Shown here: in pieces, positions 4,071-28,970 of the stretch
How the letters are laid out: the number at the start of each line of letters is the position of its first letter
How positions within the stretch are numbered: the first letter of the stretch is position 1
Assembly (NCBI GenBank): GCA_029256085.1
Contig: JAQSYP010000009.1
Location: forward strand, 1-64,000
DNA: 64,000 bases
Origin: Caryophanales bacterium
GTDB lineage: Bacteria > Bacillota > Bacilli > CAJFEE01
Reading direction: 5' to 3'
The notes under the pieces: model-generated
What the model saw: the letters and a program-made list of their open reading frames with translations, nothing else
What the model was told of the DNA's origin: nothing
Databases searched by the model: none
Made by a program: the position numbers and the translations under genes

Positions 4071-4118
4071 ACTTTTCCCTAATGTAATATATGGGACAAG
4101 TGGAGATTTTATGATTTA

Positions 4119-5309: not shown

Positions 5310-6120
5310 GCGATTCTCCTCGCTTTCTTTTTTGAAAAGCCCAGTGATTTGTAGGTCCGTGTCCAACTCCTATACCTAACTCATCTTCTATTGCCGCTTT
5401 AATAAACATTTTTGCATTGTTAATTGATTCAACAACATCTTTTCCTTTTGCCAATTCTGCTGCAATTGCTGCAGAAAAAGTACATCCGGTTCCATGTGTA
5501 TGCATTGTTTTTACCCTTTTACTATCTATATATTCAAAATCTCTTCCATCATAAATTAAATCAGTGACTATATCTCCTGATTCATCATGTCCACCCTTAA
5601 TCACCACGAATTGTGTGCCCATTTCTTTAATTTTTCGGGCTGCCTTTTTTCGATCATCCAAATTATTGATATTAATATTAGCCAACACTTCAGCTTCAGG
5701 AATATTTGGAGTCACAACCATTGATAGCGGAATTAAGTTTCTAATTAGTGCATCAACCGCTTCTTGCTGTAATAGCGTAGCACCACCTTTTGATATCATA
5801 ACTGGATCAACAACTAAGTTTGCCCAGTTATACTTTGTTACCTCAGTTGCAACAGCATTAATAATATCTGCACTAAATAACATACCTGTCTTAACCGCAT
5901 CTGCACCAATATCATCACCAATGGATTTAATTTGCTGACATATTTCTTCTACTTTTAAAGGGTATACACCTTGGACACCCAACGTATTTTGTGCTGTTAC
6001 CGCTGTAATTGCAGACATACCATATACACCTAATTCTTGAAATGTCTTTAGGTCAGCTTGAATTCCCGCTCCACCACCACTGTCCGATCCCGCTATGGTT
6101 AACGCTCTACATACTTTCAT
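5296..6120 (-). CDS. thiD: ThiD, HMP/HMP-phosphate kinase
   Basis: A ribokinase-fold kinase phosphorylating hydroxymethylpyrimidine and HMP-P to HMP-PP for ThiE. Seen: substrate loop TIAGSDSGGGAGIQADLKTF, PVMISKGG, TPNIPEAEVL and the anion-hole/catalytic stretch HGTGCTFSAAIAA. The length of 274 aa is close to the usual ~270. It sits between thiM and thiE; the last 14 bp overlap the thiE start. The specificity call (ThiD rather than pyridoxal kinase) rests on the motifs and the operon. Confidence 0.93.
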   Translation of the reverse strand: MKVCRALTIAGSDSGGGAGIQADLKTFQELGVYGMSAITAVTAQNTLGVQGVYPLKVEEICQQIKSIGDDIGADAVKTGMLFSADIINAVATEVTKYNWANLVVDPVMISKGGATLLQQEAVDALIRNLIPLSMVVTPNIPEAEVLANININNLDDRKKAARKIKEMGTQFVVIKGGHDESGDIVTDLIYDGRDFEYIDSKRVKTMHTHGTGCTFSAAIAAELAKGKDVVESINNAKMFIKAAIEDELGIGVGHGPTNHWAFQKRKRGESLGIK

Positions 6121-6137: not shown

Positions 6138-6926
6138 TTAAATTTTGCTAATTTTTTCTAAAGTATTTATTTCGTCTATAGACACCTTAGCTAACTGATT
6201 TAAAAACTCAATCTGAAAACTTCCTGGACCATTTTCAATAGTCTTTTGAGCTGCTATTTCTGCTGCTATACCATAAAAAGATACTGCTTCAGCTGCTGCA
6301 TATAATTTTTCTTGAGACGCAGCAATGAATGCTCCTATCACCGAACCTAATAAACAACCTGTCCCTGTAACTTTTGTAAGAATTGGGTGTCCATTTTCAA
6401 CTTTATATGTTGAATCACCATTAGTTATTACATCGTCTTTACCTGTAATAACTGTTATACAACCAATTTGTCTTGATGCTCTTTGTGCAAGTTCAACCAC
6501 GTCTCCAGAACCACCCCCTGCATCAACACCTTTTATTAACCAATTTTCGCCAATAACATTGGCAACTTCAGCAGCATTACCTCTTAATACGGTCACTTGA
6601 ACTTCTTTTAAGATTTTTCTAGCAGCCTCAGTACGATACGGAGTTGCTCCTGCGCCAACTGGATCAAAAACAACTGGAACTTTATTTTCATTTGCTGATT
6701 TACCAGCAATTATAATTGATGTGACAACATTTTCATCAAGTGTACCCATATTCAATACAACAGCACTTGCTATTTTCGCCATATCTGCTACTTCTTCATG
6801 TGCGTAAGCCATTACAGGTGATGCTCCTAGCGCCAGTAATCCGTTAGCAGTAAAATTTGTTACAACGACATTTGTAATATTGTGGATCAGTGGATTTGTT
6901 TCTCGTACTTTCTCAATTGTTTTCAT
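6138..6926 (-). CDS. thiM: ThiM, hydroxyethylthiazole kinase
   Basis: Salvages 4-methyl-5-(2-hydroxyethyl)thiazole by phosphorylation, feeding ThiE. Motifs: [36 protein letters not shown] and [13 protein letters not shown], with the conserved Cys. I prefer the ATG at 6926 (AAGGGG about 9 nt upstream) over the one at 6932, which is too close to the ribosome-binding site. The thiazole salvage gene together with pyrimidine uptake and thiD/thiE makes a complete salvage route. De novo genes (thiC, thiG and others) are not in this operon. Confidence 0.93.
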
Positions 6927-6955
6927 AATCATATTCCCCTTATAGTTATATTTTT

Positions 6956-7945
6956 TTAAAAATTAACAAATGCATTTTTTGAATCTACTTTTACCTTTAA
7001 AATTCCATGCTCTAGTAACCAAGCCCCTACTCTTTCCCATGAATTTTCATCTTGATATAAGAAAGGCTTATCTTTAGCATCCATTAATGGTAAAAGTATT
7101 TCTAAGCTTTTTTTTTCGATTCCCTTATCAAGTGGGGAAGTTTTGTTCTCATGTACTAGAAGTACTGACAATCCTTCTTTAGGATTTTTAACAACATATT
7201 CTTGTCCTTCTGTTAGTGCTTTAATAAAACTCTTTAACGTTTCTGAATTTTGATCAATAGATTTTTCACTTGTAACTAGGACTAATTCATAATAATTTGG
7301 AACACCATACTCTGTTGGTTTGAAAATTTTAACAGCGTGACCTTCTTTTTCTAAAAGTAATAGTTCATGATTAATGAAACCACCCGCGATTGCATCTGTT
7401 TTCTTTGTAGCAAGTGTAGGTATTAAATTCCAACCTACATCAACTAATTTTACTTTTGTTGGATCACCATTGTCCGTTTTAACCATAGTATTTATCATTG
7501 CATCATTAAGTGGTATAGATGGATATCCTATTGTTTTCCCAGTTAAATCTTTAGGTGATTTAATTTTCCCATCGGCAGCCACCATTATCGTATTTAACGG
7601 TTCACGAACAAATGCACCAATAGATTTTACTGGGATATTTTCTCCACGAGCAATTAATACTTGAGGCTGATAGCTAAGTCCGATATCGACTTTTCCCGCA
7701 GCTACTAGCTTTAAAGGATCGTTTGTATCAGCAGGCATCTTAATTTCTACATCCAGACCATGTTTTTCAAAAAAACCTTTATCTAGCGCCACGTATATTG
7801 AGGAGTGTACCGCATTAGGGTACCAATCTAACATAATACTTACCTTTTGTAATTTCTTCTCACTTGATTGAGTATTGTTGTCAGAACCACAACCTCCTAT
7901 TAAAAGTAGTGTAATACTCAACACGATGCTAACTATATTCTTCAT
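6956..7945 (-). CDS. thiY: ThiY-like lipoprotein, pyrimidine-precursor binding protein
   Basis: A periplasmic-type binding protein of the NMT1/THI5-like family, 329 aa. Lipoprotein signal: hydrophobic helix then LIGGC (Cys about residue 19). Family features: [22 protein letters not shown] near the N-terminus, [10 protein letters not shown] and GGFINHE. ThiY of Bacillus halodurans binds N-formyl-4-amino-5-aminomethyl-2-methylpyrimidine, a thiamine breakdown product. Here the riboswitch and neighbours support a thiamine pyrimidine-type ligand, but the exact ligand is inferred. No tenA salvage hydrolase gene lies in this operon. Confidence 0.85.
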
Positions 7946-7974
7946 ATGCCTTCTCCTCGATCAATTTTATATTT

Positions 7975-8742
7975 TTAATAGTATCTCTTTTTCAATATTT
8001 GTCTTTCAATAATGCTAATTATTAAAAACAAAATAATTCCAAGTAATGATAGTAAAAAAACTGCAGCAAATAGTGCATCCGCTTCCATATTTCCAGACAT
8101 TCTTCTACTGAAATATCCTAATCCTTCACTTGCTCCAAGCCATTCACCTATTGTTGCGCCAACAACACAGTATACAATTGCCATTTTGAGACCTGATAAA
8201 AATGTTGGTAATCCCATTGGAATTTGAATTTTTTTAAATATGTCCCACCGGTTTGCACCCATTGTAAGTAATAAATTACTATAGTCGGTCCCTCTTAATT
8301 TAAGTCCATCATATGTACTGATAACTATTGGGAAAAATGCAATAAGAAATGTTACAGCAACCTTACTCCATATTGAATATCCAAACCACATTATAAAGAT
8401 TGGTGAGATAGCGATTAGTGGAATCGTTTGCGATATTACAAGAAAGGGATATATTATTTTTTCTAAAGCTTTTGAAAAATGCATACAAATGCCAAGCATT
8501 ATACCAACTATGACAGATAAAACAAAACCTATTACAACCTCTTTAAGTGTTGCTAGCAAATGAACCTCAAACAATACTTCTCTATGTTCTATTAGTGCCT
8601 GCAAGATCGATGTTGGTGCCGGAAGAATGAATGAAGGTATTATTTCTTTATTAACAGACCATTCCCAAATGCAACCTATTAGAATAGTCATTAACACAAA
8701 GGGCCCATAACTCTTAATCCTTGTTTTACAGCTATCTTTCAT
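7975..8742 (-). CDS. thiX: ThiX-like ABC transporter permease
   Basis: A 255-residue inner-membrane permease of the binding-protein-dependent transport family with about six transmembrane segments. The ATPase-contact EAA-type loop GANRWDIFKKIQIPMGLP is at about residues 163-180. The start ATG overlaps the thiZ stop by 4 bp (ATGA), so the two are translationally coupled. It lies 30 bp upstream of the lipoprotein gene. It likely forms the membrane channel of a thiamine-precursor importer; the family alone would also fit taurine/nitrate-type importers. Confidence 0.87.
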   Translation of the reverse strand: MKDSCKTRIKSYGPFVLMTILIGCIWEWSVNKEIIPSFILPAPTSILQALIEHREVLFEVHLLATLKEVVIGFVLSVIVGIMLGICMHFSKALEKIIYPFLVISQTIPLIAISPIFIMWFGYSIWSKVAVTFLIAFFPIVISTYDGLKLRGTDYSNLLLTMGANRWDIFKKIQIPMGLPTFLSGLKMAIVYCVVGATIGEWLGASEGLGYFSRRMSGNMEADALFAAVFLLSLLGIILFLIISIIERQILKKRYY

Positions 8743-9993: not shown

Positions 9994-10058
9994 AATTAAC
10001 GCTTTGAGAACTGAGGAGCACGACGTGCACCTTTAAGACCGTATTTCTTACGTTCTTT
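9994..10058 (-). repeat. attR: 65-bp direct repeat (rpsI tail)
   Basis: Identical base for base to 28906-28970. It covers the last 20 codons of rpsI and its TAA. It is the target-site duplication flanking the integrated element. One base further on (10059) the two copies diverge, marking the element end. Confidence 0.95.
9996..10058 (-). pseudogene. rpsI 3' remnant
   Basis: Twenty C-terminal codons of ribosomal protein S9 ([10 protein letters not shown] to FSKR) plus stop, with no start codon or upstream coding sequence. It was cut off from rpsI by insertion of the element, which carries its own copy of this tail. It should not be annotated as a gene. Confidence 0.9.
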
Positions 10059-10202: not shown

Positions 10203-11714
10203 TTACTTTGCTTTTTCTTGTAATACCTCTTTTAATAATTCAATTGCGTTTTCTTCTGTTGGGTCATTTGTTCCAAGTTCACCCCGGAATGCTTTTTGTA
10301 GAATAGAATTTTTTAATACGTCCATTTCTAATATGGATTGTTTACAAATTTCTTCAACGGCATCAAATTTCTTAAATAAAGTATCGATCACTTTAACTAT
10401 TTCTTGTTGTTCCTCAAGAGGTGGAAGTGGTATTGCCATATATATAAGTCTTGTTAAACCCAAATCTTTATTTGTTACTCCCCTGGTTTGGGCTTGAGAT
10501 TGATTATAAACAAATCTACTAGTTAAAACATCTCTAAGGTAGTACGGTGATATATACGATTTAACTATCTTTAATAAAGCTAAGTGAACCCATATACTGA
10601 ACGGTTCAGTTTCTTCAACTACTGTAGCAATACCCGTTGTTCCACCTTTTGTTATAATTACATCTCCTAACTTAGCGTTTGTTCTTTTACAAAATTCTAA
10701 ATGGTCTTCTTCACTAACAAATTTACAATCAGTGAAATCTATACCCCTATACTTGATATTTCTGGTAGAAATAAAAGGTACTCCTTTATCCTCTTCAACA
10801 TAGTTAGGGGAGAAATGTGGACCATCTGAAACACTCCAAGTTACTTGATCAATACTAACCCATTGCCAACTTGATGGAATTTGAAATAAATCTCTGACAC
10901 CCTTTGTCTTATCTCCAAGATCAATTGGTACTGGTGGCGTATAACGTTTATTACTAATGTTTGTTTCTTTTAAACGTTTACGTTCATCTAATAAAGGTTC
11001 TATATGAACCCTCTTTCCCGTATTCCTACTTCTCCATTTTTCAGTTAACTCTCCTCTTATTGCTTTATCCAAAACAGCTGCTCTACGAAGTTCAAATGTT
11101 TCCTTTGTTTCGTCAATCAACTGCTTGGCTTCTTCAATTTTATTCAAAAGATAATCTAGTTTATCAGAAATTCGTTTTTGTTCATTGATAGGTGGTAGTG
11201 GAAAATTCATTTCCTCAATGAGCTTACCACTAATATTTGGTTGTGCTCCACCATAGGCTAGACTAAGTATTTCATCTTTTGACTTCTGTATAAAAAGGTT
11301 TTTATACGCCCTTTCTATCAACCTTCTGTCAATTTCCTTGATATTGCCAACCCGTTGATTTTGCATAGCATTTTCATTAGCGTAAAAAATCCCAGTCTTA
11401 CCAGTCGTTGCTCCTGACATCGCAATTAAAAGATCTCCCTTATTGATGATAAATCTTTCATTGTATAATTCATTTGGGACCTTTACAGCTTTTGATAAGT
11501 CATAAATTTTTCCTACTATATCCGAAATTCTAACGATAGGAATACCTTCTTCTATATAATCTTTACTTTTAAAAGCATAACCATTAACAAGACTCGCAAC
11601 TGTTCCAAACTTTACCCAAATCCAGTTATCCGGTAATTTATATGGTTGCTCTCCCTCGTCAACTAACGCTTCAAGAAACAATTCTTCAACTGTCTTTTGC
11701 TGATTCTTACTCAT
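10203..11714 (-). CDS. hsdS: HsdS, type I restriction-modification specificity subunit
   Basis: 503 residues with two target-recognition halves, each followed by a helical spacer. TRD1 is about residues 25-190, ending at PLPPINEQKRISDKLDYLL; TRD2 is about 280-440, ending at PLPPLEEQQEIVKVIDTLF. This is the classical Methylase_S layout that reads a bipartite DNA site. The ATG at 11714 overlaps the hsdM stop by 8 bp (ATGAGTAA) and has GGAG upstream; the longer reading from 11765 is unlikely. It is the last gene of hsdR-hsdM-hsdS and lies next to the element end. Confidence 0.93.
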   Translation of the reverse strand: MSKNQQKTVEELFLEALVDEGEQPYKLPDNWIWVKFGTVASLVNGYAFKSKDYIEEGIPIVRISDIVGKIYDLSKAVKVPNELYNERFIINKGDLLIAMSGATTGKTGIFYANENAMQNQRVGNIKEIDRRLIERAYKNLFIQKSKDEILSLAYGGAQPNISGKLIEEMNFPLPPINEQKRISDKLDYLLNKIEEAKQLIDETKETFELRRAAVLDKAIRGELTEKWRSRNTGKRVHIEPLLDERKRLKETNISNKRYTPPVPIDLGDKTKGVRDLFQIPSSWQWVSIDQVTWSVSDGPHFSPNYVEEDKGVPFISTRNIKYRGIDFTDCKFVSEEDHLEFCKRTNAKLGDVIITKGGTTGIATVVEETEPFSIWVHLALLKIVKSYISPYYLRDVLTSRFVYNQSQAQTRGVTNKDLGLTRLIYMAIPLPPLEEQQEIVKVIDTLFKKFDAVEEICKQSILEMDVLKNSILQKAFRGELGTNDPTEENAIELLKEVLQEKAK

Positions 11715-13161
11715 TTCTACCCACTCCAACTGGTTCAGTAGAAACCTTATCCTCTTCAACTTCACGTAGTTCAGTTACAACTTCATTCAACAACCCAAGT
11801 GCTTGTTCAAGCTTAGCAATTGCATCTTCTGCTGAATCAATAGGATCTGGTAGGTTCGCATATACCGATATAGATTCATCTGCAATTAAACCAATATCTA
11901 AACTGTAGTCTTTTTTCTGGATTTCTTCACGTGTAAAGACGTTAAACCTTTCATCTTTTATACTAAATCGATCTTCGGATAGAAATGCTTCAACAAAAGC
12001 CTCAAAGTGTTTTTCTGTTAAGGGGTTTCTTTTTCCAAAGCTAGACATATTCGTTCGTAAGTCATACACCCAAACTTCTTTTGTAGTATCCTTATCTGTT
12101 GCACCACGAGTGAAGAAAAGAACATTTGTCTTAACCCCTTGTGCATAGAAAATACCTGTAGGTAAACGAAGAATAGTATGTAAGTTACATTTGTCCAATA
12201 AATCTTCTCGGATTTTTGCTCCAATTCCACTTTCAAATAGGACGTTGTCTGGTAAAACCACAGCAGCTCGTGCTTCTCCATTTGGCTTTAGAGCACGATA
12301 AATATGCTGTAAGAAATTCAATTGTTTATTAGTTGATGTAAATGTTAAATCATCGCGTGTTGGTCTTTCTCCACCTTGCTTTGTCCCAAACGGTGGATTA
12401 GTCAAAATAACATCATAGTTTTTTAAGTTACTTCCAAGTTCAGAAAGAGTATCACCAAGAAAAATTTCACCATGAATGTCATGTAGTAAAGCATTCATCA
12501 TTGCAAGACGGTGAGTATCTTTTACAAGCTCAACCCCAGAAAATGCCTTATACTTTTGGAACTCTGCTTCTTTCTCCCCTAAATCAAAATAATCATCTGT
12601 TTTTAAACGAACATGTCGATCTGCTGCAATCATAAACCCAAATGTTCCAGCTGCTGGATCATTACAACGCTCTCCTGGTTGTGGATCAACCAATTTAACA
12701 ATTACATCTATTAATGGACGTGGTGTAAAATATTGACCCGCACCGGATTTTGTTTCACTCGCATTCTTCTCAAGTAACCCCTCGTAAAGATCACCTAACC
12801 CTTCTTCTTTTGCACTATACCAATCAAGCTCATCAATAGAACGTACAATTTTTTCTAGGTTTTTAGGCTCATCAATATTTGTTTTTGCATTTGTATAGAT
12901 TTGTTTTAGGATATCGTTTCCTTCGTTACCCAAATCAATAAGTAGTTTTTGATAATGTGTTTTTAGTTCTAGTCCATGAAGACTCACTAATGAATCCCAG
13001 CGATACTCTTCTTCAATAGACCCTTCGTTATCTGTTTCCTTCATCATTTTTAAAAATAACAAATACGTTAATTCTGTTACATATTGATGATAGGTAATAC
13101 CATCATCACGTAACACATTACATAAGTTCCACAGTTTCTGAACAATCTGTTGGTTACCCAT
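11707..13161 (-). CDS. hsdM: HsdM, type I adenine-N6 DNA methyltransferase
   Basis: A 484-residue modification subunit that methylates adenine to protect host sites and forms the complex with HsdS and HsdR. An N-terminal helical HsdM_N domain (about 1-125) is followed by the SAM-binding motif I NDPAAGTFGF (about 167-176) and catalytic motif IV NPPF (about 255-258). The length and order fit a standard EcoEI/EcoKI-like HsdM. It starts 4 bp after the hsdR stop and overlaps hsdS, so the three genes form one translationally coupled operon. Confidence 0.95.
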   Translation of the reverse strand: MGNQQIVQKLWNLCNVLRDDGITYHQYVTELTYLLFLKMMKETDNEGSIEEEYRWDSLVSLHGLELKTHYQKLLIDLGNEGNDILKQIYTNAKTNIDEPKNLEKIVRSIDELDWYSAKEEGLGDLYEGLLEKNASETKSGAGQYFTPRPLIDVIVKLVDPQPGERCNDPAAGTFGFMIAADRHVRLKTDDYFDLGEKEAEFQKYKAFSGVELVKDTHRLAMMNALLHDIHGEIFLGDTLSELGSNLKNYDVILTNPPFGTKQGGERPTRDDLTFTSTNKQLNFLQHIYRALKPNGEARAAVVLPDNVLFESGIGAKIREDLLDKCNLHTILRLPTGIFYAQGVKTNVLFFTRGATDKDTTKEVWVYDLRTNMSSFGKRNPLTEKHFEAFVEAFLSEDRFSIKDERFNVFTREEIQKKDYSLDIGLIADESISVYANLPDPIDSAEDAIAKLEQALGLLNEVVTELREVEEDKVSTEPVGVGRNE

Positions 13162-13164
13162 ATG

Positions 13165-16100
13165 TTATGCTTGCTCCCTTTCATCTTTTGTGTATAGTGC
13201 GTAGTTGATTTTACTCACAATTTCGTCTAGTTGTCCACCGAAGATCTTGTTTAGCTGCTTGTAGCCACCACGGCTCTTAAACGGCTCGACTTCAAAGGCC
13301 TTTTGCGGATCAGGATGAAGAACAGACTCTTTTAGCAATTGTTTTTCTATGCGCTCTAACCAGCCCTTTTGTACACTAGGCCATGCTTTCATCGCATAGA
13401 TCTTTTTCATAGCTCTCTTTATGCGCTCTTCATGGTCCATAAGCGGGTCACCTAATGCCTGCTGACGGATAAAGCTTATGATGTCTGCGGCAATATCCAC
13501 ATTTTTCGCATCACGCCACGCCGTCTGCAATGCCTTTTCTGTGAAGCCTTTTTGATCTAGTGCAATACGTAACTCTCGCAGTTGGTCACGTGTGAGTTCT
13601 TTCGGTCTTGTGCATACCACTTGCAAAGCTGGGATTAAATTCATATTCTCTTTTATAAACTGACCAAAGCTCTGTAAATAATCCTCTGGCTTTTTGGCGC
13701 TTCCATACCCGCGTGTTACCTCTTTTACCTCGTCCTCATGTGTCGAGATAAATTGAAGCACAGGTCTGCCTCTATTTTCATCGATATATTGAACAATATT
13801 TTGATTCTTCATCAACGTTTCAATGACATCATTAGGTTCTGCGGTTTTAATCCAATTCACAAACTCGTTAATCGTTTTTCCACCTGATAATATTTTAAAG
13901 TCGTCTTGATCCTTCTCATCCCACCGCTGTTTCTTTCGTTGAATTTTAGCGATAAGTTCTTCTTTGTGCTGCCGTTTCAAGCTGTCGTCATCAATTTGCT
14001 CTAATTCTTTTACCAATTGTTCTACTGTTACCTTAGGGCTTTTAACAACTGGCTTCATTTGTGTGTACGGCTTTAACGATTCATAAATACCGACTGCATC
14101 AAAAATAGAGAAATGATCTTTGCCAATCTCATCTTGTCTTCTTGTGGCACGTCCCAACATTTGCTCATACAAAATACGCGAGCGCACTCGTCGTAGAAAT
14201 ACAAGATTAACAATAGCAGGAACATCAACACCCGTCGTGAGTAAGTCGACAGTAACCACAATGTTTGGTAGCCGTTCATTTTTAAATAACTTAATTGCTT
14301 GTGAAGGATTTTTAATAGAGCCTGTTATTTTCATAACCGCATTATCATCGATAGGACCATGAATATCCTCTAACTCTTCTTTAAAAATTCTAACAACCAT
14401 ATCAGCATGATCATCAGTTGCGGCAAAAATTAATGTTTTCCCAAGACTTGTCGGATCAATATATTTAGCTAGTTCAGCTAAAATTACACGATTAAAGTTT
14501 TCCGTAATAACCATCTTGTTAAATTGTGTTACTTCAATATTAACTTCATCTTCTAACAACTCTGTTTCTATCTCTCCAGTACGAGTGTTATAAACTTCAA
14601 CAGTATCGCCTGCCTCCCAGTGTATACCAGATTGTTTAAGTGTTGTTTCAAATTGGTAAGGTGGTTCATGATCTATTAAATAACCATCCACGACAGCTTC
14701 TCGATAAGAATACGTAAATACAGGGCTACCAAATATCTCGACCGTATGCAGCGCTGGCGTTGCTGTTAATCCTACCTTTGTTGCATCAAAGTATTCAAGC
14801 ACTTGGCGGTATTTACTCACATAGTCCTGGTGATCTCGAAATAGCTCTTCTACCTCAGACATTTCTTTATCTAGCGTATAACCTCTGTGTGCTTCATCAA
14901 CAATGATGCAATCGTATTGATCAACCGTTGGGGTTTCTTCATCGCGCTCTGAATAAAATAATCGCTTTAACATACCCTGAACAGTAGCAATTTGTACTTT
15001 CGTTTCCGTATTTGGTTTAATATCCTCTAATGACTGTAGTTCAAAGATTTCTGTAAACGAATGATAATTCTCTAGTTTGGAATCTTTAAAGGCAGCCTCC
15101 GCTTGCTCACCTAATGCTGTTCGGTCTACTAAAAATAAAATTCGTTTGAAGCGGTTATGTTTAATCAGTCTATAGACAAGACCTATTGCCATCCTTGTCT
15201 TCCCTGTCCCGGTAGCCATAGCAAGCAAAACTTCTCTCTGATTTCTTTCTACCGCTTGCTCAACTGCTTTGATAGCTTTCTCCTGGTAGGGGCGTAGATT
15301 TAAGTAATCGAGCTTTTCATCACGAAGTTTTTCATTAGCCTTCTCTTCGTCTAGCTTTAATAACTCCTTTAAGCCTTTTGGCGAATACCAAGCTTTTAAA
15401 GGCCTTGGATGGTTAGTTGATTTCCTTGCATCTAAAAACCAAATGCCCGATCTCTCTTCAAATTGCTTAAGATAGGGTCTACCATTCGTAGCAAATAAGA
15501 ACGGAACAAAGTAGTCACCATATGGTTCTAGAATGATTTCTTCTCCCTTTTTTTCTACTAATCTTGCATAGTTCTTCGCCTGCTCAATGTCAGAAGGGAT
15601 GTTTTTACTTAGTCTTTTCGCTTCTATAATCCCTATAAGTTCTAATCCCACAAACAAGGCATAATCTGCAAATCCCTTTTTCAACGGCCATTCAGCAATC
15701 GCTAGATTCTTTCCCTTTTCAGGACGAGCGCCTTTACCATAGCGTAATTCTCTCGTATCGGCTACCCAACCCACTTCACGCAGCTGTTCATCAATGATGA
15801 CACGCGTTTCCTCTTCTGTTAGCTTTAGCTGTGTTCCGTGTACATTAGCGTCTTTCTTCCGTTTCAGCTTGTCCTCATCTGACACATAGTGCTGCTCTTG
15901 TCTCAATTTTTCAAGCTCTTGCTCAAGCTGCGCTACCTTTTCTTCATAGGAAGAGGATAGGTTATGTAGTTCTTCATCGTTCACTATACTCACAGGTGTT
16001 GGCTCTTTATAAGCAGGCTCAGTAAAGTCCCAATCGCCATATACCTGCATAAACCAAACACCTAGCCTATGTGCCATATGTAATAAGACTTCAGCTTCCT

Positions 16101-16407
16101 TCTGGGTTCCGAAGCCCTCGTGCATAGCCTTATTTCCTTTTTTTCGTATCGTATGCAAAATTTCCTCAAGCTCCTGTGAGATAAGGTCGTCTCTTCTTAA
16201 GGCATTTATGCGATCCGTTTGATTTGTATCATGTGTTTCCTTAATCTCTTCGTATGCTAATACATATTTTGTTAAAGTCTCCGCAAATACGCGCAGCTTC
16301 ATCAAGGTTGTGTTTGGATCTATGAAGACGTTTCTTTCTGCCGTTTCCCCCAAATTGGCTAAAATCTCCCATTTTTCAGAAAGAAAATTAAAGTTACTTA
16401 TCCCCAT
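13165..16407 (-). CDS. hsdR: HsdR, type I restriction translocase/endonuclease
   Basis: A 1080-residue restriction subunit. Order seen: N-terminal DUF4145-like helical domain (about 1-130), coiled coil (about 150-175), HSDR_N nuclease domain with D248 and E262-A-K264 of the PD-(D/E)XK fold, then the SF2 translocase with Walker A ATGTGKT (about 398-404), DEAH (504-507), TATP, TTGVDVP and QMLGRATRR. The EcoEI_R_C-type helical C-terminus follows. All catalytic motifs are intact, so the enzyme should cleave unmodified DNA. By eye hsdR is clearly richer in GC than the Septu-like operon in the same element, hinting at a different source. The start is ATG with a GGGG-type ribosome-binding site. Confidence 0.95.
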   Translation of the reverse strand: MGISNFNFLSEKWEILANLGETAERNVFIDPNTTLMKLRVFAETLTKYVLAYEEIKETHDTNQTDRINALRRDDLISQELEEILHTIRKKGNKAMHEGFGTQKEAEVLLHMAHRLGVWFMQVYGDWDFTEPAYKEPTPVSIVNDEELHNLSSSYEEKVAQLEQELEKLRQEQHYVSDEDKLKRKKDANVHGTQLKLTEEETRVIIDEQLREVGWVADTRELRYGKGARPEKGKNLAIAEWPLKKGFADYALFVGLELIGIIEAKRLSKNIPSDIEQAKNYARLVEKKGEEIILEPYGDYFVPFLFATNGRPYLKQFEERSGIWFLDARKSTNHPRPLKAWYSPKGLKELLKLDEEKANEKLRDEKLDYLNLRPYQEKAIKAVEQAVERNQREVLLAMATGTGKTRMAIGLVYRLIKHNRFKRILFLVDRTALGEQAEAAFKDSKLENYHSFTEIFELQSLEDIKPNTETKVQIATVQGMLKRLFYSERDEETPTVDQYDCIIVDEAHRGYTLDKEMSEVEELFRDHQDYVSKYRQVLEYFDATKVGLTATPALHTVEIFGSPVFTYSYREAVVDGYLIDHEPPYQFETTLKQSGIHWEAGDTVEVYNTRTGEIETELLEDEVNIEVTQFNKMVITENFNRVILAELAKYIDPTSLGKTLIFAATDDHADMVVRIFKEELEDIHGPIDDNAVMKITGSIKNPSQAIKLFKNERLPNIVVTVDLLTTGVDVPAIVNLVFLRRVRSRILYEQMLGRATRRQDEIGKDHFSIFDAVGIYESLKPYTQMKPVVKSPKVTVEQLVKELEQIDDDSLKRQHKEELIAKIQRKKQRWDEKDQDDFKILSGGKTINEFVNWIKTAEPNDVIETLMKNQNIVQYIDENRGRPVLQFISTHEDEVKEVTRGYGSAKKPEDYLQSFGQFIKENMNLIPALQVVCTRPKELTRDQLRELRIALDQKGFTEKALQTAWRDAKNVDIAADIISFIRQQALGDPLMDHEERIKRAMKKIYAMKAWPSVQKGWLERIEKQLLKESVLHPDPQKAFEVEPFKSRGGYKQLNKIFGGQLDEIVSKINYALYTKDEREQA

Positions 16408-16648: not shown

Positions 16649-17251
16649 TTACTTCCTAGTGAAGTCTTTCTTTATTTGATCAATATCTCTTCTAGTTATT
16701 TCTGAAATATATTTCAGTAGATCATCATATTTGTCACTATTATTGAGTTTTTTTAATCTCTCAACAAGACCCTCAAAACCCTTAAAATATTCACTTTGAT
16801 AATCTGAGTTGTTATAAAACTTAAAAAATTCAAGATAATCTTTTGTAGACATTTTATCTTTTATCTGTATAAGAATATCATTCCAATTTTTAATTCTTTT
16901 TTCATGTATAGGTTTTTTTAAGCTACTTCCTTCTTTTTTCTCATTTTTTATCTGTAGAATAAACTGTTCGATTTCAAGCATATATTGAAAAAGTTCATTC
17001 CTATTTTGACTATCCAATTCATATAGTAATTTAGCATTATAACGATTATAACGCCCTTTCCTATAATGTTCTTTTCCTTCTGTTTTGTTTGATTCTTCTT
17101 TCTTTTCTCTATGTTTTTTAACCGAATCTACTACACCTAAAAAATCTAATGCTGCTGTTATCTCTTTTCGGTTGTCTTTTAAAAATCCCCATGCTTTTGG
17201 TCCATATTTTTTTACCCCTTCTTTAATTGGCCCCATAGGTATTCTAGACAT
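16649..17251 (-). CDS. Hypothetical protein between the two defence operons
   Basis: A 200-residue, highly charged, mostly helical protein (many Lys/Glu, no Cys). It begins MSRIPMGPIKEGVKKYGPKA with a short moderately hydrophobic region (AALDFLGVVDSV) near residues 33-44 and has no clear signal peptide. I do not recognise the family. GGGGGGC before the ATG acts as ribosome-binding site. It stands alone between terminators and separate from hsdR, so it may be an independent accessory or defence gene; that is inference from location only. Confidence 0.65.
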   Translation of the reverse strand: MSRIPMGPIKEGVKKYGPKAWGFLKDNRKEITAALDFLGVVDSVKKHREKKEESNKTEGKEHYRKGRYNRYNAKLLYELDSQNRNELFQYMLEIEQFILQIKNEKKEGSSLKKPIHEKRIKNWNDILIQIKDKMSTKDYLEFFKFYNNSDYQSEYFKGFEGLVERLKKLNNSDKYDDLLKYISEITRRDIDQIKKDFTRK

Positions 17252-17551: not shown

Positions 17552-17594
17552 AACCGAGAGTTAGCGGTTATATTGTTTATGCTAATCCTCGGTT
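17552..17594 (-). terminator. Terminator-like hairpin downstream of the Septu-like operon
   Basis: A 14-bp stem, AACCGAG..TTAGC with GCTAA..CTCGGTT (one mismatch, one wobble), and a 15-nt loop. On the minus strand it is followed by a short T run. It is the first such structure below ptuB, about 290 nt downstream, and may end that transcript. Confidence 0.55.
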
Positions 17595-17886: not shown

Positions 17887-18558
17887 CTAAACACCCACTA
17901 GTGCTTTATTTAGCCTTTTTTGTAGAAAATACACAGCCACACCATAAAACTGCTTGTGTTGCCCATCAGCATTTTTAGATTCCCACTTGTCAATTAATTC
18001 TCTAATCTGTTTAGCTGTCCAATTGGATTTATTACTACCAAGTTGCTTTCTAACTTGATCATAGATGTCTGCACGATAATCTTTTAACCGTTGTAAATTC
18101 AAATTTAGATTTTCATTAATGTCTACATTTATATCAACTATTGAAGAACTTATCTTTCCATCTTTATTGTAGGTAATACTATCTATATGACTTTTTTTAG
18201 TCATGCATAGGGTTACCACCTTATCACCTTTAAATGTATCACAGTGTTGATAATCTTTAGGCTTTTTTCTCGATTGTATTTTTTCGTCACCATCACAAGC
18301 AGCAAACAGATTGTTGTAACTAAAGATTAGATGTTCTTGCTTACTACTCTTACAAAAACTTTGGGGTAAAAGATGCTCTATTTTAGTGGACTTATAATTA
18401 TTACGAATACGCTTCATACAATAACAGCAAATATATCCTTGCTCTTGTAGTAATGAAGTCCGAAGATCAGATTTATCTAAATCATCAAATCTAGTTGCCC
18501 CACTTAACCTTGATACAGTCCAAGATTTAGGTTCACTACCTTTAGTAATTAATAGCAT
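17887..18558 (-). CDS. ptuB: PtuB-like HNH endonuclease
   Basis: A 223-residue HNH nuclease of the PtuB/retron-effector type. The beta-beta-alpha metal site is visible: CCYC (44-47), I-E-H (H62) in IEHLLPQSF, YNNLFAACDG (N82/N83, C88) and HCDTF (H105, C106). In Septu systems the PtuA ATPase and PtuB nuclease together cleave nucleic acid upon phage infection. It starts 6 bp after the ATPase gene. Unlike retron-Septu loci there is no reverse transcriptase; unlike simple Septu, a methyltransferase and a specificity subunit share the operon. Confidence 0.85.
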   Translation of the reverse strand: MLLITKGSEPKSWTVSRLSGATRFDDLDKSDLRTSLLQEQGYICCYCMKRIRNNYKSTKIEHLLPQSFCKSSKQEHLIFSYNNLFAACDGDEKIQSRKKPKDYQHCDTFKGDKVVTLCMTKKSHIDSITYNKDGKISSSIVDINVDINENLNLNLQRLKDYRADIYDQVRKQLGSNKSNWTAKQIRELIDKWESKNADGQHKQFYGVAVYFLQKRLNKALVGV

Positions 18559-18564
18559 AAATAT

Positions 18565-19833
18565 TTAATCCCTTTCAAATTCAATAATACTATTCGCTCT
18601 AGTTATTCGTTTATCATCCTCACCCATCAATTTAGAAAGTTTAATTAAAATATTTTCAGCTTCATTGTATTTCTCTTCTTCGATTAAGTTAAATATAGTG
18701 TCAAAATCGTTTTCAATGTCATCAACATAAACATTAACACCCATCGCTTCATTCAATATTGAATCAAAATCACGTCCATAAGTATAAGGAGAATTAATTA
18801 TTTCTCCCTTATCAATGATAAAAACATTCTCCTTCCTCACATGAGGTAACATAATAGGAGAGTGTGTGGTAATTAGGAACTGTTGATTAGAATTTATTAA
18901 ATTTATTTCACTAATTAAGTCTATTTGCCAGGTAGGATGCAAGAAAGAATCAGGCTCATCAAGTAGAAATAATGTTTGATTATTAGAAAACAATTCACTT
19001 ACTGCATAAATTGTAATTAATTGTTTTTCTCCTTCACTTAAATCCATAAAATCCAATTGTGAACTGTGGTTTATTAACAATTCAATTGAATTTACCTTTA
19101 AGCACCCTGCCCTATATAGCCAATCTAAAGCAGTATAGAGATCATACTCATATCCAAATAAATCCTTAAGATTCATTAAATCTTCGTTAGTAGCAAGAAT
19201 AATTTTGTCATCATTTCCACTAAGTTTATAATGTTCTCTTAATTTCTGATACAGTGATTTGGCCGGTTCCCTTAAAGTACTTTTTTTCTCTATGGACAAC
19301 TCTATTCTAGTAAAATTATTTATACCAATCTTTTTTTCTATAAATTCACTTAATTGCGATCCCTTTTCAAAAGATAAAAGATATATAAATAAGAACGGAA
19401 ATAATTCAGGAGTTACATAATAAACAGGCATTAGCCAATTTAATTTACCAAGTGAGGCCATATATTCCATAAATAAATTCTCTTGTTCATGTATTACTTT
19501 TTCAAGTCTTTTTGTGGTACCGGAGTATAATACAACTAGATTAGGAGAATAGCTTAATCCCACCCCTAAATGACTTACCCTAACTTCCTCTCTTGTTTTG
19601 TTAGATAAGTGGTTCAATTGGCCATTATAAATACTATCAAGTAAGTAGGAGAAGTTGGTATCTTTTCTACTATAAAAACTAATAAAAATTTCCGTAATTG
19701 CCTCAATTAAATTAGATTTCCCCGAACCATTCTTCCCAATTAACAGTATTTTATTGTTTATAGAATTAGAGAGGTCTAATCTGAAATCTCTAAGGTTTTT
19801 ATAATTCTCTATATATAATTGATTAATTTTCAA
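18565..19833 (-). CDS. ptuA: PtuA-like AAA/ABC-type ATPase
   Basis: A 422-residue SMC/OLD-type ATPase: MKINQLYIENYKNLRDFRLD N-terminus, Walker A GKNGSGKS (33-40), signature-like LSEGEKQ (265-271), Walker B LFLLDEPDSFLHP (288-300) and the H-loop TTHSPIMLP (about 322-330). An AAA_15/AAA_21 architecture, as in PtuA and other defence ATPases. The ATG overlaps the stop of the upstream specificity gene by 4 bp, so its synthesis is tied to the DNA-recognition subunit. It probably senses infection and controls the HNH partner; the trigger is unknown. Confidence 0.85.
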   Translation of the reverse strand: MKINQLYIENYKNLRDFRLDLSNSINNKILLIGKNGSGKSNLIEAITEIFISFYSRKDTNFSYLLDSIYNGQLNHLSNKTREEVRVSHLGVGLSYSPNLVVLYSGTTKRLEKVIHEQENLFMEYMASLGKLNWLMPVYYVTPELFPFLFIYLLSFEKGSQLSEFIEKKIGINNFTRIELSIEKKSTLREPAKSLYQKLREHYKLSGNDDKIILATNEDLMNLKDLFGYEYDLYTALDWLYRAGCLKVNSIELLINHSSQLDFMDLSEGEKQLITIYAVSELFSNNQTLFLLDEPDSFLHPTWQIDLISEINLINSNQQFLITTHSPIMLPHVRKENVFIIDKGEIINSPYTYGRDFDSILNEAMGVNVYVDDIENDFDTIFNLIEEEKYNEAENILIKLSKLMGEDDKRITRANSIIEFERD

Positions 19834-21170
19834 TAAAAAATTGCCTCCTCAAATTCCATTTTAGCTTCCTTTTTTAGAGATTCAGATAATTCTCTTAACT
19901 TTACTACTTCACTTTTAATATTTTTAATATAACTTACAATTTCCTTTTGCACTTCCAAAGGAGGAGTTATAACCGGATAATTATTTATCATTTCTGCATT
20001 TAAATTGGGTTGGTTATTTCCACTCGCTAAAACACGTAAACGTTCATACTCGTTCATTAAATAAAACCATAAGAAGTCAGTATTAATTTTATTATTATCA
20101 AAATTATATAACACTGCACAGGCTTGATTAGTTGCTGCCTCAATTCCTAGTTTAGCAGTTCTACCTCTAGTTGCACCTTGCCCATACATGGCTATTATCA
20201 AGCTTCCTACAGGATAAATCTTAGCACTACTATCTTTTATTGCTTCCTCGGTTATCTTTTCCTCGGCATCAAAAATTGTGCTATTTATTACTTCACCTGT
20301 CTTTATCCAAGGTATTGTGCCGTTATAATAATCTTTTCTGTTCCTGCTAGGAGTTCCTCCACTACCAACTCTACATAATGAACTAATTATATTCATTTTA
20401 AAATTTGAAGTGATCTTAGTGTTTACAGCTGTTAAAAATTCAAACCCCCATTTGTTTAAGTTCGAAAATGATTTAATTAAAAAGCGTTTTGACTCACTTG
20501 ATTCATGTTCAGAGTCTATTCCTAATATTTCTTCTAGGTATCTTTTAATTTCATCCTCTAGTTTTTGGGATTTATTAACCATGAATTCAGCTTCTTCTAC
20601 CTTTTTATAATAATTTACCAACATCTTTTCCTGTTCTAATAAAGGCGGAAGAGGTATTTCACTGTTTAAAAATAAATCCTCCTGTAGATAATGCCGATTC
20701 GTTGTACCATTACTACTAGATTCCCAAATATCTTTAAACTGCTTTGTGGCAAGGATAAATGATAAATAATTCGGATTAATTATCGACGTTTCAATATCAA
20801 AGGTCCAAAAATTCCCTGTTATTATCCCTTTGTCAAGTTCTTCTGGAATAACACCAAAAGCTCCATTACGGGCATCTATTTTTGATAGTATTAATTGTCC
20901 AGCTTTAACTAGGTATTGTTCCTTCGTGCCTATTGAGTTTCCCTGGACTATATCCCTCAACACCACACCTTCATTGTTCATTTTTATTTTAATTCTCTTG
21001 TATTCAACATTATCCTGAATATTTATTTTAGTTTTATTCCTTTTTAAGAGGCTGCTTAATTTGACTGCCGGATACACCAAACTAATATTATTTGAAAGAG
21101 TTAAATACTGTATACTCCAATTTGTTAGATTTTTATAAGAAATCGATTTGATAAAATTCACCTTAGACAT
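19830..21170 (-). CDS. Type I-like HsdS specificity subunit of the Septu-linked operon
   Basis: A 446-residue protein with two Methylase_S-type halves. The first (about 1-195) ends in PLPPLLEQEKMLVNYYKKVEEAE; the second (about 225-430) ends in PPLEVQKEIVSYIKNIKSEVVKLRE. TRD2 contains RVGSGGTPSRNRKDYYNGTI and a GNNQPNLNAEMINNYP segment. It overlaps the methyltransferase gene by 13 bp and the ATPase gene by 4 bp. No hsdR partner lies in this operon. It is distinct in sequence from the HsdS at 10203-11714, so it should read a different DNA site. Confidence 0.88.
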   Translation of the reverse strand: MSKVNFIKSISYKNLTNWSIQYLTLSNNISLVYPAVKLSSLLKRNKTKINIQDNVEYKRIKIKMNNEGVVLRDIVQGNSIGTKEQYLVKAGQLILSKIDARNGAFGVIPEELDKGIITGNFWTFDIETSIINPNYLSFILATKQFKDIWESSSNGTTNRHYLQEDLFLNSEIPLPPLLEQEKMLVNYYKKVEEAEFMVNKSQKLEDEIKRYLEEILGIDSEHESSESKRFLIKSFSNLNKWGFEFLTAVNTKITSNFKMNIISSLCRVGSGGTPSRNRKDYYNGTIPWIKTGEVINSTIFDAEEKITEEAIKDSSAKIYPVGSLIIAMYGQGATRGRTAKLGIEAATNQACAVLYNFDNNKINTDFLWFYLMNEYERLRVLASGNNQPNLNAEMINNYPVITPPLEVQKEIVSYIKNIKSEVVKLRELSESLKKEAKMEFEEAIFY

Positions 21171-23422
21171 TTTGGACTTTTCAGCTCCTGTTCCTCATTT
21201 CCAATAACTCTTACCAAGTTCCCATTTTTTGCTAATTTGTAGGATATTTCCTTCTTTTCCGAATTCCAGAGCATAGTTTCTTTATTAAATTCGTTAAACT
21301 CCTTTTCAACATCTAAAAGTTCATTTTCACAAACTGCACCTGTTGTAGTAATCCCAGCTTTTTCAACCTTTGCTATTGGAATTTTGTAATCAAATAGAGC
21401 TTTTATCTTTTCCTTTATTTCAATTTCTTTTCTTTGGTTAATTACTTTTAGACACTCTTTGTACTCTTTATCCTTTTTTCTATTTGCATATTGAATATTT
21501 AAAGTATCTACATCAGGTATATATTTTTGATTTATTTCCTCCGTTACTAATTCCTGAATATTATTATATTTATCCTCTTCTTCTTGAGAAAAACGTTTTA
21601 TAAATACAAGACTAGGTTTTACTGTGGCACCAGCTGCTATAAAAACGTCTTGTGGAATTGAGCATATAAATAGTATTTTAGCTCGCCCTTCAAAATACTC
21701 TCTTACCTTTTGCATGTTAGAATTGTTAAGTATACCTTCAGGCAAAACAATTCCCATTCTTCCGCCTTTCTTTAGAAGTTTTAGACATCTTTCCATAAAA
21801 AGAACTTCGGTTAAGCCGGTGAATTTTCCCGTATCAAATAAGCTTAAAACTGAGTTTCCTATATTATCATCAGTTTGTCTTAGTGCCTCTTTATAAGCTT
21901 GTCCGTATCTTCTAACTAGTTTATTTATTGCCACTTCATCTCTAAATCTATCTGCTTCGGTTATTTTAAGACTTTTATCAATTCTGGCTCCAAATGGTGG
22001 GTTTGTTAGAATTACATCGAACCTTTCTTCAAATATTCCATTCACATTTAGTAGGCCATCATGATGATGAACTCCGCCATGCCCATCTCCATGCATTATC
22101 ATATTCATTTTAGAAGTTCGGGCCATACGAGAATTAGCATCAACACCATAAATACAGTTATGTGATAAATCGTATAATCTACTTTCAAAATTCCCCTCGT
22201 TAGATACTTCAAATTCTTTATTTAATAAATCAAAGATATTGTTAAGCTTTCTATTAATCTCGGTTTGCTCTGATTCAGATAGAGAGTCATAATCTTCACC
22301 CATGAGCTCATTCTTAAATTTTTCTTTATAGTATTGTATATCTAACTCAATTTTTTCTCTAATATATTCAAATGATTTAATTAAAAACCCACCACTCCCA
22401 CATGTTGGATCACATATTGTTTCACCTTCCTGTGGATCCAGGATATTGGTCATAAAATCAACTATTGTTCTGGGCGTGAAAAACTGGCCTAATTCTCCTC
22501 TAAAAGTTTTTCCTAGAAATTGTTCGAAGGCTATCCCTTTAACATCATCCGATGTATCAGATAAGTTATATTTTTCTAGTTCTTCTAGAATCGCCTCAAA
22601 ACTATTTTGTCTTATCCTAATTAGTTCATTTTCTTCAAAGAGTTTATCTTCGTTGTAAAAATTTTTTGTATTCATAAATAAGTACTGCATATACGGTAAA
22701 TCCAAATGTGTATTCTTTAGATTTGGGCGTATATTTTGTTCAAAAGTGAGTTCATCCTGTTTAAACTTTTCTTTAGTGAAAACTATACTTCCCTTATTAT
22801 TCTTTTCAAAATTAATTTTCATAAAAAGTACCTTACTAATCTCATCAAATGCAGCTTCCGGGGAAAGTTTATCATTGTTTCTGATAATACTATGACACCT
22901 AAATAATAATCTGGTAAATTCCTCCCTTGTAAATGTCTTTGTTTGAGAGAGTAATTCTAGTATTTTGTTTGTGTCATTTACTTCGTCTGCTTTAGGTATT
23001 GCTAATATTTCCTCTAGACTTTTAGGGAGATATTCTTTATTAATATTAAAGTATTTCGTTTCCTTTAAATTCGTGGTAACAAAAAAGGTTGCTCCTGCCC
23101 AAGCAGCATAATTATACCCTTGAAAGTAATCTTCTACGTGAATTTTTAAATTTTGGGACTTACACTCAACAACTATAAATGCTGCCTTTCCATCTTTCTT
23201 GTCCTCTTCACTTTTCCATATAACGATATCTGCTCTAGCCTTTCCTTGACCACGCTTTGAATTATTTACTATAACCTCTTGAGCCATTTGATTTATGGAA
23301 TAACCATATTCATTAACTAATTTCTTTATATATTCCTGTCGAACTCTTTCTTCGGGGGTTTCTACAAGCCATTTATTAATTAGTGGCGCAAATATTTTTG
23401 ATTCTTTTATTTGGATTTCCAT
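21158..23422 (-). CDS. N6-adenine methyltransferase with N-terminal HSDR_N-like nuclease domain
   Basis: 754 residues, much longer than a plain HsdM (about 500). The first ~125 residues look like the type I R-subunit N-terminus: VRQEYIKKLVNEYGY, then RADIVIW (D65) and VVECK (E86, K88), the PD-(D/E)XK pattern. A helical region follows, then the methylase with motif I DPTCGSGGF (338-346), a His-rich HGDGHGGVHHHD (about 445-455) and catalytic NPPF (474-477). It could both modify and nick/cut, as in type IIG-like enzymes, with the specificity gene downstream. A strong AGGAGG precedes the ATG. It is the first gene of the M-S-PtuA-PtuB operon. Confidence 0.88.
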   Translation of the reverse strand: MEIQIKESKIFAPLINKWLVETPEERVRQEYIKKLVNEYGYSINQMAQEVIVNNSKRGQGKARADIVIWKSEEDKKDGKAAFIVVECKSQNLKIHVEDYFQGYNYAAWAGATFFVTTNLKETKYFNINKEYLPKSLEEILAIPKADEVNDTNKILELLSQTKTFTREEFTRLLFRCHSIIRNNDKLSPEAAFDEISKVLFMKINFEKNNKGSIVFTKEKFKQDELTFEQNIRPNLKNTHLDLPYMQYLFMNTKNFYNEDKLFEENELIRIRQNSFEAILEELEKYNLSDTSDDVKGIAFEQFLGKTFRGELGQFFTPRTIVDFMTNILDPQEGETICDPTCGSGGFLIKSFEYIREKIELDIQYYKEKFKNELMGEDYDSLSESEQTEINRKLNNIFDLLNKEFEVSNEGNFESRLYDLSHNCIYGVDANSRMARTSKMNMIMHGDGHGGVHHHDGLLNVNGIFEERFDVILTNPPFGARIDKSLKITEADRFRDEVAINKLVRRYGQAYKEALRQTDDNIGNSVLSLFDTGKFTGLTEVLFMERCLKLLKKGGRMGIVLPEGILNNSNMQKVREYFEGRAKILFICSIPQDVFIAAGATVKPSLVFIKRFSQEEEDKYNNIQELVTEEINQKYIPDVDTLNIQYANRKKDKEYKECLKVINQRKEIEIKEKIKALFDYKIPIAKVEKAGITTTGAVCENELLDVEKEFNEFNKETMLWNSEKKEISYKLAKNGNLVRVIGNEEQELKSPKCLR

Positions 23423-23727
23423 TAATAAAACCTCCTAATATTATTTTATTTAGTTATTCATAGTAAAAACAAAATAAAAATCTTAAGTCATTAAAGTTAG
23501 CTTATTTCAAAATATTAAAAATATCAACTCCCTCCTTTGGGAATTAGCTAAATATATCCTTATTGGCTGTTTTTGGCTTTAATCTTTGTACAGCAATGAT
23601 TACGGCATTCATATACACAATACAAAAAGAAAAGGCCTCTAACATTTTAATAAAAATGAAAAGAAGCCTTTTCCTATAATTAGATATTCTAGATGGTTAA
23701 TAAATCATGTCCTAATTGTCTAATTCT
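23423..23727. other. Intergenic region between helicase-loader gene and Septu-like operon
   Basis: About 305 bp, AT-rich. It contains one terminator (23636-23672) and presumably the promoter of the downstream methyltransferase operon. Candidate -35/-10 pairs on the minus strand are weak and I do not commit to one. No small ORF with a ribosome-binding site was seen. Confidence 0.5.
23633..23673 (-). terminator. Terminator after helicase-loader gene
   Basis: AAAAGGC/GCCTTTT with an inner ATTTT/AAAAT stem. On the minus strand it ends in TTTTCTTTTT, about 55-90 nt after the stop of the DnaC-like gene. It separates the replication block from the defence operon. Confidence 0.75.
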
Positions 23728-27651: not shown

Positions 27652-28803
27652 ATGGCATCCTTCCAAAAGTACATTACAAAACATGGTCAACTTTGGTTAT
27701 TCAAAATGGATACTGGGATTAATCCAGCAACAGGTAAGCGACAAACTACCACTAGAAGAGGGTTTAAAACAAAGAAGGAGGCACAACTCGCTGCATCAAA
27801 ACTAGAAGAAGAATTACAAAGTGGAATACTAATAAATAACAATAATTTAACTTTCTATGATGTCTTTATTCTATGGTTCAATCAACATAAGAAATCTATC
27901 AAATTAAGTACAATAAAAATCATTGAATCAAAATTTAAGAGTCACATATTGCCTCGTTTTGGCCAATTAAAAATAAAGGATATCAATAAGATTTATTGCC
28001 AGAAACAAATTAACGAAATTGCTTTATCCATAAAATCTGTTAATGATATTAAAATTCAAGCTAACCAAGTATTTAAATATGCAATCAAGATGGATATTAT
28101 CTCTAAGAACCCTCTTGAACATGTAACAGTCCCGAAAATAAAACAAGAAATAGTAGCAGACAAACCAATAACCGACACACGTAATTATTGGAGAAAAGAT
28201 GAAATACAGAACTTTCTTGAAATTACTAAAAATGAATTAACATTAAGAGATCATGTTCTGTTTCATTTACTAATATATACTGGTGCACGTAAAGGTGAGT
28301 TACTTGCACTTACATGGGAAGATATTGATTTTAAAAGAGGTACATTACGTCTATGGAAAACCTTATTCCATAGTAATAATGAGCATATCTTTCAGCAGCC
28401 TAAAACGAAAGATTCTAAGCGATTAATTAGTTTAGACACCAAAACCTTAGCTCTATTAAAAAAGTGGCGTATAGCCCAGTTAGAAGAGGAGTTTGCTATT
28501 GGTAAAAGAAAGGATAAAGTTAATATAGTGTTTACAAAAGCTGATGGAAGCCCCCTACGATTAGCCTACCTTAATGAAAAGTTAAACATTTTAATAAAAA
28601 AGCATAAACTCCATCCTATTACTATCCATGGTCTAAGACATACACACGCTTCATTACTTTTTGAAGCTGGAGCAAATATTAAAGAGGTTCAAGAACGCCT
28701 GGGCCACTCTGATATTAAGATGACTATGAATATCTACACTCATGTAACAGATACCGTAAAGGAACAAACTGCCTCAAAATTTCAAATGTATTTGGAGCAA
28801 TAA
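27652..28803 (+). CDS. int: Tyrosine recombinase integrase
   Basis: 383 residues. An N-terminal arm-binding AP2-like domain (about 1-55) is followed by a SAM-like core-binding domain (about 65-160) and the catalytic domain with R213 (GARKGE), H326-x-x-R329 (HGLRHTH), H352 (LGHSD) and nucleophile Y362 (NIYTHV). All catalytic residues are present, so it should be active. It lies about 100 bp from the 65-bp att repeat in rpsI and reads towards it, which identifies the rpsI 3' end as its target. GAAAGGAA precedes the ATG. Confidence 0.96.
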   Translation: MASFQKYITKHGQLWLFKMDTGINPATGKRQTTTRRGFKTKKEAQLAASKLEEELQSGILINNNNLTFYDVFILWFNQHKKSIKLSTIKIIESKFKSHILPRFGQLKIKDINKIYCQKQINEIALSIKSVNDIKIQANQVFKYAIKMDIISKNPLEHVTVPKIKQEIVADKPITDTRNYWRKDEIQNFLEITKNELTLRDHVLFHLLIYTGARKGELLALTWEDIDFKRGTLRLWKTLFHSNNEHIFQQPKTKDSKRLISLDTKTLALLKKWRIAQLEEEFAIGKRKDKVNIVFTKADGSPLRLAYLNEKLNILIKKHKLHPITIHGLRHTHASLLFEAGANIKEVQERLGHSDIKMTMNIYTHVTDTVKEQTASKFQMYLEQ

Positions 28804-28905: not shown

Positions 28906-28970
28906 AATTAACGCTTTGAGAACTGAGGAGCACGACGTGCACCTTTAAGACCGTATTTCTTACGTTCTTT
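28906..28970 (-). repeat. attL: 65-bp direct repeat inside rpsI
   Basis: Perfect copy of 9994-10058, spanning the last 20 codons and stop of rpsI. Position 28971 onward is chromosomal rpsI only. The crossover must fall within this block. Confidence 0.95.

Follow-up and report, generated by a model that had tools for sequence, protein, structure and literature searches.

The window, that is, the whole stretch of 64,000 nucleotides analysed here, encodes an operon of four minus-strand genes in the order M-S-PtuA-PtuB, at the positions first reported. The genes, the parts of M discussed below and the flanking signals are:

21158..23422, minus strand: M gene, encoding a predicted type IIB-like RM protein of 754 aa (N-terminal PD-(D/E)xK nuclease plus N6-adenine methyltransferase; Pfam HSDR_N_2 and N6_Mtase, Foldseek BsaXI)
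22994..23356, minus strand: N-terminal nuclease domain of M, residues 23-143 (Pfam HSDR_N_2; residue alignment to BsaXI)
21992..22003, minus strand: NPPF methyltransferase motif of M, residues 474-477 (alignment)
19830..21170, minus strand: S gene, encoding a specificity subunit of 446 aa with two target recognition domains (Pfam Methylase_S, two stretches)
18565..19833, minus strand: gene for a PtuA-like ABC-type ATPase of 422 aa, TTG start (PADLOC PtuA, 153 bits; Foldseek; conserved motifs; S-linked clade)
17887..18558, minus strand: gene for a PtuB-like HNH nuclease of 223 aa (PADLOC PtuB, 200 bits; PDB profile matches; alignment)
23525..23546, minus strand: terminator-like hairpin upstream of M (pattern match only)
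17552..17569, minus strand: terminator-like hairpin downstream of PtuB (pattern match only)

M and S overlap by 13 bp, S and PtuA overlap by 4 bp, and 6 bp separate PtuA from PtuB, confirming the gene order and joints described in an earlier note on this DNA. The start sites are credible because AGGAGG precedes both the M start and the TTG start of PtuA, and relatives align from about residue 1. The family calls on the four genes agree across Pfam, PADLOC and NCBIfam. The hairpins are weak evidence, six such patterns having been found in the region against 2.6 expected.

The operon is cargo of an integrative element of ∼18.9 kb, which is bracketed by 65-bp exact direct repeats at rpsI and has its integrase beside this gene. 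Further 22- and 20-bp matches lie beside the 65-bp repeats. The genes of the element include, in addition to the integrase, excisionase-like, RepO-like and DnaC-like genes, and its cargo comprises two RM systems. The second of these is a complete type I R-M-S operon (10203-16407), located on the same strand 1.5 kb downstream of the M-S-PtuA-PtuB operon. The features of the element are:

9994..10058, no strand assigned: attachment-site copy at the distal end of the element, a 65-bp exact repeat of the rpsI 3' end (repeat match)
28906..28970, no strand assigned: attachment-site copy in the rpsI 3' end, integrase-proximal end (repeat match)
27652..28803, plus strand: integrase of the operon-carrying element (Pfam Phage_integrase)
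13165..16407 (R), 11707..13161 (M) and 10203..11765 (S), minus strand: separate type I operon (Pfam, PADLOC, NCBIfam)

No HsdR-type helicase is encoded within the four-gene operon, which therefore differs from a classical type I locus, where HsdR is encoded with M and S. The earlier note was thus correct that the operon contains no HsdR-type translocase, but such a subunit is encoded nearby in the separate R-M-S operon. The idea that this downstream HsdR serves the M-S pair was rejected as a main explanation, as that R is encoded in one operon with M and S genes of its own. A 200-aa protein encoded between PtuB and HsdR (16649-17251) had no match in Pfam, PADLOC or NCBIfam.

M as a predicted type IIB-like restriction enzyme

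M contains an HSDR_N_2 domain (residues 23-143) followed by an N6_Mtase domain, and matches the PADLOC MTase_I profile over its full length (1161 bits). The description of M as a methyltransferase in the earlier note is consistent with the second domain, but the protein is not only that, as an N-terminal BsaXI-type nuclease is fused to it. An AlphaFold model of M, built from 46 sequences (pLDDT 82), was compared with the PDB using Foldseek. The top match was the type IIB enzyme BsaXI (8w0p, E 1.5e-21, 886 columns), where the large rmsd reflects a different placement of the domains. RM.BsaXI also ranked first for M in a profile search. Mutagenesis has shown that E73, D90, E105 and K107 are essential in the nuclease domain of BsaXI (PMC11997821). 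These residues correspond to E49, D65, E86 and K88 of M in the profile alignment, of which the N-terminal stretch is collinear and, taken alone, weak (6.5 bits). All four are retained in 82 of 83 aligned M sequences, while the NPPF motif is kept in every one of the 83. The sole exception to the nuclease quartet is the PtuAB-linked M of locus L080, in which position 86 is a glycine. The same locus encodes a second ATPase of 743 aa (L080 15762-17993) immediately 3' of PtuB.

BcgI and BsaXI, type IIB enzymes with a separate S subunit, form (RM)2S complexes that both methylate and cut DNA without a motor subunit (PMC4081073, PMC3874165). The operon resembles these systems in that a nuclease and an N6-methyltransferase are fused in one chain, S is separate and has two target recognition domains (two Methylase_S stretches), and M retains the four essential BsaXI nuclease residues within a full-length fold match. 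It differs in that its RM protein is shorter (754 versus 916 aa) and that a PtuA-PtuB pair is added; its cleavage and methylation activities are predicted from sequence. On the basis of the fold match and the conserved residues, M is predicted to be a type IIB-like fused nuclease-methyltransferase (RM). M-S probably constitutes a complete (RM)2S restriction enzyme by itself and, therefore, PtuAB need not replace HsdR.

The PtuA-PtuB pair and comparison with known systems

The PtuA protein displays the conserved motifs Walker A, SEG..Q and DEPD, together with H324. Although it is only ∼30% identical to its relatives, its model, which is of moderate confidence (pLDDT 76), gave as best Foldseek matches retron Ec83 PtuA and other solved PtuA chains from retrons and Septu. 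AriA of the PARIS system was found among both the sequence and the fold matches, lower down the fold list. PtuB keeps C44, H62 and N83 in the alignment, and a profile search of the PDB returned PtuB chains. The structure and profile matches, with the PADLOC scores for PtuA (153 bits) and PtuB (200 bits), uphold the proposal that the pair is a Septu-type effector, as do the adjoining positions of the ATPase and HNH genes and their intact motifs. The operon departs from other surveyed Septu-like pairs in that its PtuA belongs to an S-linked clade (see below) and is translationally coupled to M-S. Two characterized PtuAB systems, those of retron-Eco7 and Septu EcB88, deplete or cleave tRNA-Tyr (PMC11555353, PMC13096335).

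Several other systems share elements of this arrangement. Type I-A retrons (Eco7/Ec78, Ec83) have the same kind of PtuA-PtuB effector pair, but in the operon M-S would occupy the sensor position, and a retron of this type was rejected as no reverse transcriptase domain was found by Pfam among the scanned neighbouring genes. EcoprrI/PrrC likewise has an ATPase-nuclease effector encoded inside an RM locus, which in the PrrC case is held by the RM enzyme; PrrC, however, is a single protein with another nuclease domain, located in a full type I locus. In PARIS (AriA-AriB) an ABC ATPase sensor is paired with a nuclease effector, but this effector is a Toprim tRNase rather than an HNH protein, and PARIS has no M-S genes. 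In MADS, too, an HSDR_N-MTase occurs with an S subunit and an AAA ATPase. Membership of MADS was rejected, as the scores lie far below the NCBI cut-offs (MAD2 287/720, the match being M itself; MAD3 36/420; MAD5 42/400 bits), and the genes around the operon included no other recognisable mad gene.

Gene neighbourhoods of M-S, PtuA and PtuB

A genome scan with an M profile identified 435 relatives, of which the best 80 were used together with five loci from other searches. Of the resulting 85 loci that were read, 75 contained M, S and at least 1.5 kb of downstream sequence. A PtuA-like ATPase follows S in 48 of these 75 loci, directly in 35 and one to three genes later in 13, while in the remaining 27, about a third, none was recognised. 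PtuB-like HNH proteins are present in 12 of the 75. The order M-S-PtuA-PtuB recurs in L009 and eleven other loci of this survey (in L046 with an extra gene between S and PtuA), and so is not a matter of chance. Elsewhere the S-linked ATPase is accompanied by other partners, namely GIY-YIG with DUF4357, GmrSD with a 129-aa protein, DUF6602, DUF5655 (which shows NucS_C similarity), FRG and others. The M tree requires at least 25 changes of effector class among 74 labelled loci, compared with at least 34 when the labels are shuffled, indicating that effectors are partly inherited yet often exchanged. No relative was found in the phage records or the E. coli genomes searched, and a plasmid search returned only three close relatives of M.

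Several of these neighbourhoods have features of their own. The 129-aa and GmrSD-like proteins are a conserved pair behind the S-linked ATPase (L067 9546-12019, and also L074, L089 and L091). Proteins of 818-876 aa lie behind M-S in L033 (13676-16141), L050 and L053, where no PtuA-like ATPase was recognised; that of L033 has a DGQHR domain. L070 encodes a TIR-domain protein behind M-S (4101-5513), and a locus with a closely related M, L068, carries an ATPase and GIY-YIG instead. In L069 a 499-aa protein behind M-S (6917-8416) has weak matches to DndB and nucleoside deoxyribosyltransferase.

The surroundings were also approached from PtuB. A search of 399 genomes from the window's phylum gave matches at four other loci, and M-S adjoined none of them. 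Among 396 genomes of the phylum of genome G783 there were 46 matches, and of the 40 loci that were read S adjoins PtuAB in four and does not in 36. In the four, PtuAB lies behind a type IIB-like RM-S (L136 and L138), another type I M-S (L139) or a complete type I R-M-S locus (L175). Some of the 36 are flanked by an SNF2/NOV_C helicase and a DUF1156 methyltransferase, or have GmrSD proteins as neighbours. The first of these arrangements (L158 2012-10601, with similar sizes in L155, L156, L162 and L166) is another methylation-linked setting.

Because the M-side sample favours M-S contexts, a PtuA profile was in addition searched against 392 genomes of the phylum of G783. Upstream sequence was sufficient for 11 full-length matches, and every one of these is immediately preceded by an S gene; three matches at contig ends were left out of this context count. 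Four of the 11 follow a type IIB-like RM-S, while the other seven come after classical type I genes, with R present in at least five cases. Weaker matches to the C-terminus only proved, where read, to be PtuAs that are not linked to S, with the exception of the S-linked ATPase of L209.

A tree of 47 S-linked and 39 other PtuAs requires two changes of label, whereas 200 shuffles, which do not allow for the sampling scheme, gave at least 22 changes (mean 28). The count remained at two when type I-linked ATPases were included (55 versus 39 rows). The tree was built by a quick method, is supported by SH-aLRT values only and has several long branches, such that details within the clade are unsure; L139 and the long-branched L078 stand apart. 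M-side ascertainment inflates the clade, and the PtuA-side search nevertheless points in the same direction. Members are always beside S where context is available, and also lie behind complete type I R-M-S loci (L175, L201, L202 and L204). The S-linked ATPases thus form nearly one clade, dedicated to S-containing enzymes. One member, the ATPase of L209, falls within a family already named by NCBI as a restriction system-associated AAA family ATPase (TIGR04435, 828 bits); the PtuA of the operon scores 89 bits against this model, below the cut-off of 300. The refuting condition set in the earlier note, that M-S and PtuAB are usually apart in homologous loci, points in both directions: 36 of the 40 PtuAB loci are not beside M-S, but the S-linked ATPases are almost all of one specialised clade. 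The link is between an S subunit and a PtuA-like ATPase, and not specifically between M-S and PtuAB.

A possible second layer of defence

The coupling as such is well supported, and the view that the four genes are one functional unit gains from the dedicated S-linked ATPase lineage, which also argues for PtuA working with S or RM-S. As the clade occurs behind complete R-M-S loci as well, and the RM nuclease is intact, PtuA appears to be an addition to the restriction enzyme rather than a substitute for HsdR. The reading we favour, to which we give an even chance, is of a restriction enzyme with a dedicated second-line effector, providing a two-layer defence read through PtuA. In the first layer RM and S would form a type IIB-like (RM)2S enzyme on a bipartite site, methylating this site on host DNA and cutting unmodified DNA; the assignment of DNA recognition to M-S in the earlier note is supported. 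In the second layer the S-specialised PtuA-like ATPase may hold the PtuB HNH protein and read the state of the RM-S-DNA complex. Interference with this complex, for which a phage anti-restriction protein or DNA mimic is the most likely cause, would lead the ATPase to release or activate PtuB; the nuclease would then cut nucleic acid (phage DNA or host tRNA) and so halt infection.

We infer the contact between PtuA and RM-S, the trigger and the substrate of PtuB, and the proposal that PtuA monitors RM-S and sets PtuB free when the enzyme is inhibited is made by analogy with PrrC, PARIS, retron-Eco7 and Septu EcB88. PrrC, embedded in EcoprrI, is kept sequestered by the type I enzyme until T4 infection sets it free (PMC3874165). 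In PARIS a tRNase is held by the ABC ATPase AriA, which detects the anti-restriction protein Ocr (PMC12409363). The suggestion in the earlier note that PtuAB may guard M-S against anti-restriction proteins is live and, in our view, the best option. The 27 of 75 M-S loci in which no ATPase was recognised, and the PtuAB-linked L080, whose M lacks E86, argue against the two-layer model.

The main rival to the guard model, which we regard as possible but on the unlikely side, is direct recruitment of PtuAB to target DNA. Here RM-S would bring PtuAB to unmodified sites, or to DNA ends that it has made, so that PtuAB adds cleavage and amplifies restriction directly rather than guarding against inhibitors. 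The dedicated linkage of the ATPase to S is equally consistent with such a role, and the GIY-YIG with DUF4357, GmrSD and DUF5655 (NucS_C similarity) partners found at the same place resemble DNA nucleases. However, RM already has a conserved nuclease, the two characterized PtuAB systems act on tRNA-Tyr, and the FRG and DUF6602 partners are unlike restriction nucleases.

It is improbable that the modules are mere neighbours, in other words independent defence systems co-selected within mobile cargo. The operon does share its integrative element with another RM system, most surveyed PtuAB pairs are not beside M-S, and defence genes embedded in RM loci are common (PMC12255303); such a view is nevertheless difficult to reconcile with the translational overlaps, a single S-specialised ATPase clade (two label changes versus at least 22) and the position behind S of 11 of 11 matches in the PtuA-side search. 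Equally improbable is the explanation advanced in the earlier note, in which M-S only methylates and recognises DNA and PtuA-PtuB, in place of HsdR, is the only effector of restriction: it would account for an operon that has PtuA and PtuB directly after S and no HsdR gene, but it was rejected as the main model given the BsaXI-type PD-(D/E)xK residues intact in 82 of 83 sequences, the ability of type IIB enzymes with a separate S to cut without a motor subunit (PMC4081073), the presence of the same ATPase clade behind HsdR-containing loci (L175, L201, L202 and L204) and the many M-S loci (27 of 75) in which no ATPase was recognised.

The two-layer reading can be extended, tentatively and with somewhat less confidence than the model for the operon itself, to the clade as a whole. 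Its PtuA-family ATPases would then serve type IIB and type I enzymes alike as a general adaptor seated on S, with many exchanges of the attached effector (HNH, GIY-YIG, GmrSD, FRG and others), and restriction enzymes would at the same time act as sensors for a second immune response based on effectors. Part of this picture is already known, as NCBI lists a restriction-associated ATPase family and effectors have been found inside RM loci, examples being PrrC and DarTG2, the latter in a type I locus (PMC12255303). In the literature searched, of which coverage was partial (subscription papers, preprints) such that prior mention is possible, neither a type IIB-like RM-S with PtuA-PtuB nor an S-dedicated PtuA clade with exchangeable effectors was described, and TIGR04435 was not mentioned under that name.

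The occurrence of this ATPase lineage almost only beside S suggests a second line of phage defence, dedicated and exchangeable, in many restriction enzymes. Provided that the coupling has a function, PrrC would be a single instance of a wider principle, in which restriction enzymes have their own exchangeable back-up effector via a dedicated ATPase. This would help to explain why defence genes are frequent beside hsdS and would provide a second answer to phage anti-restriction proteins. It would also open the trigger of PtuAB to experiment, as here the likely sensor, RM-S, shares its operon.
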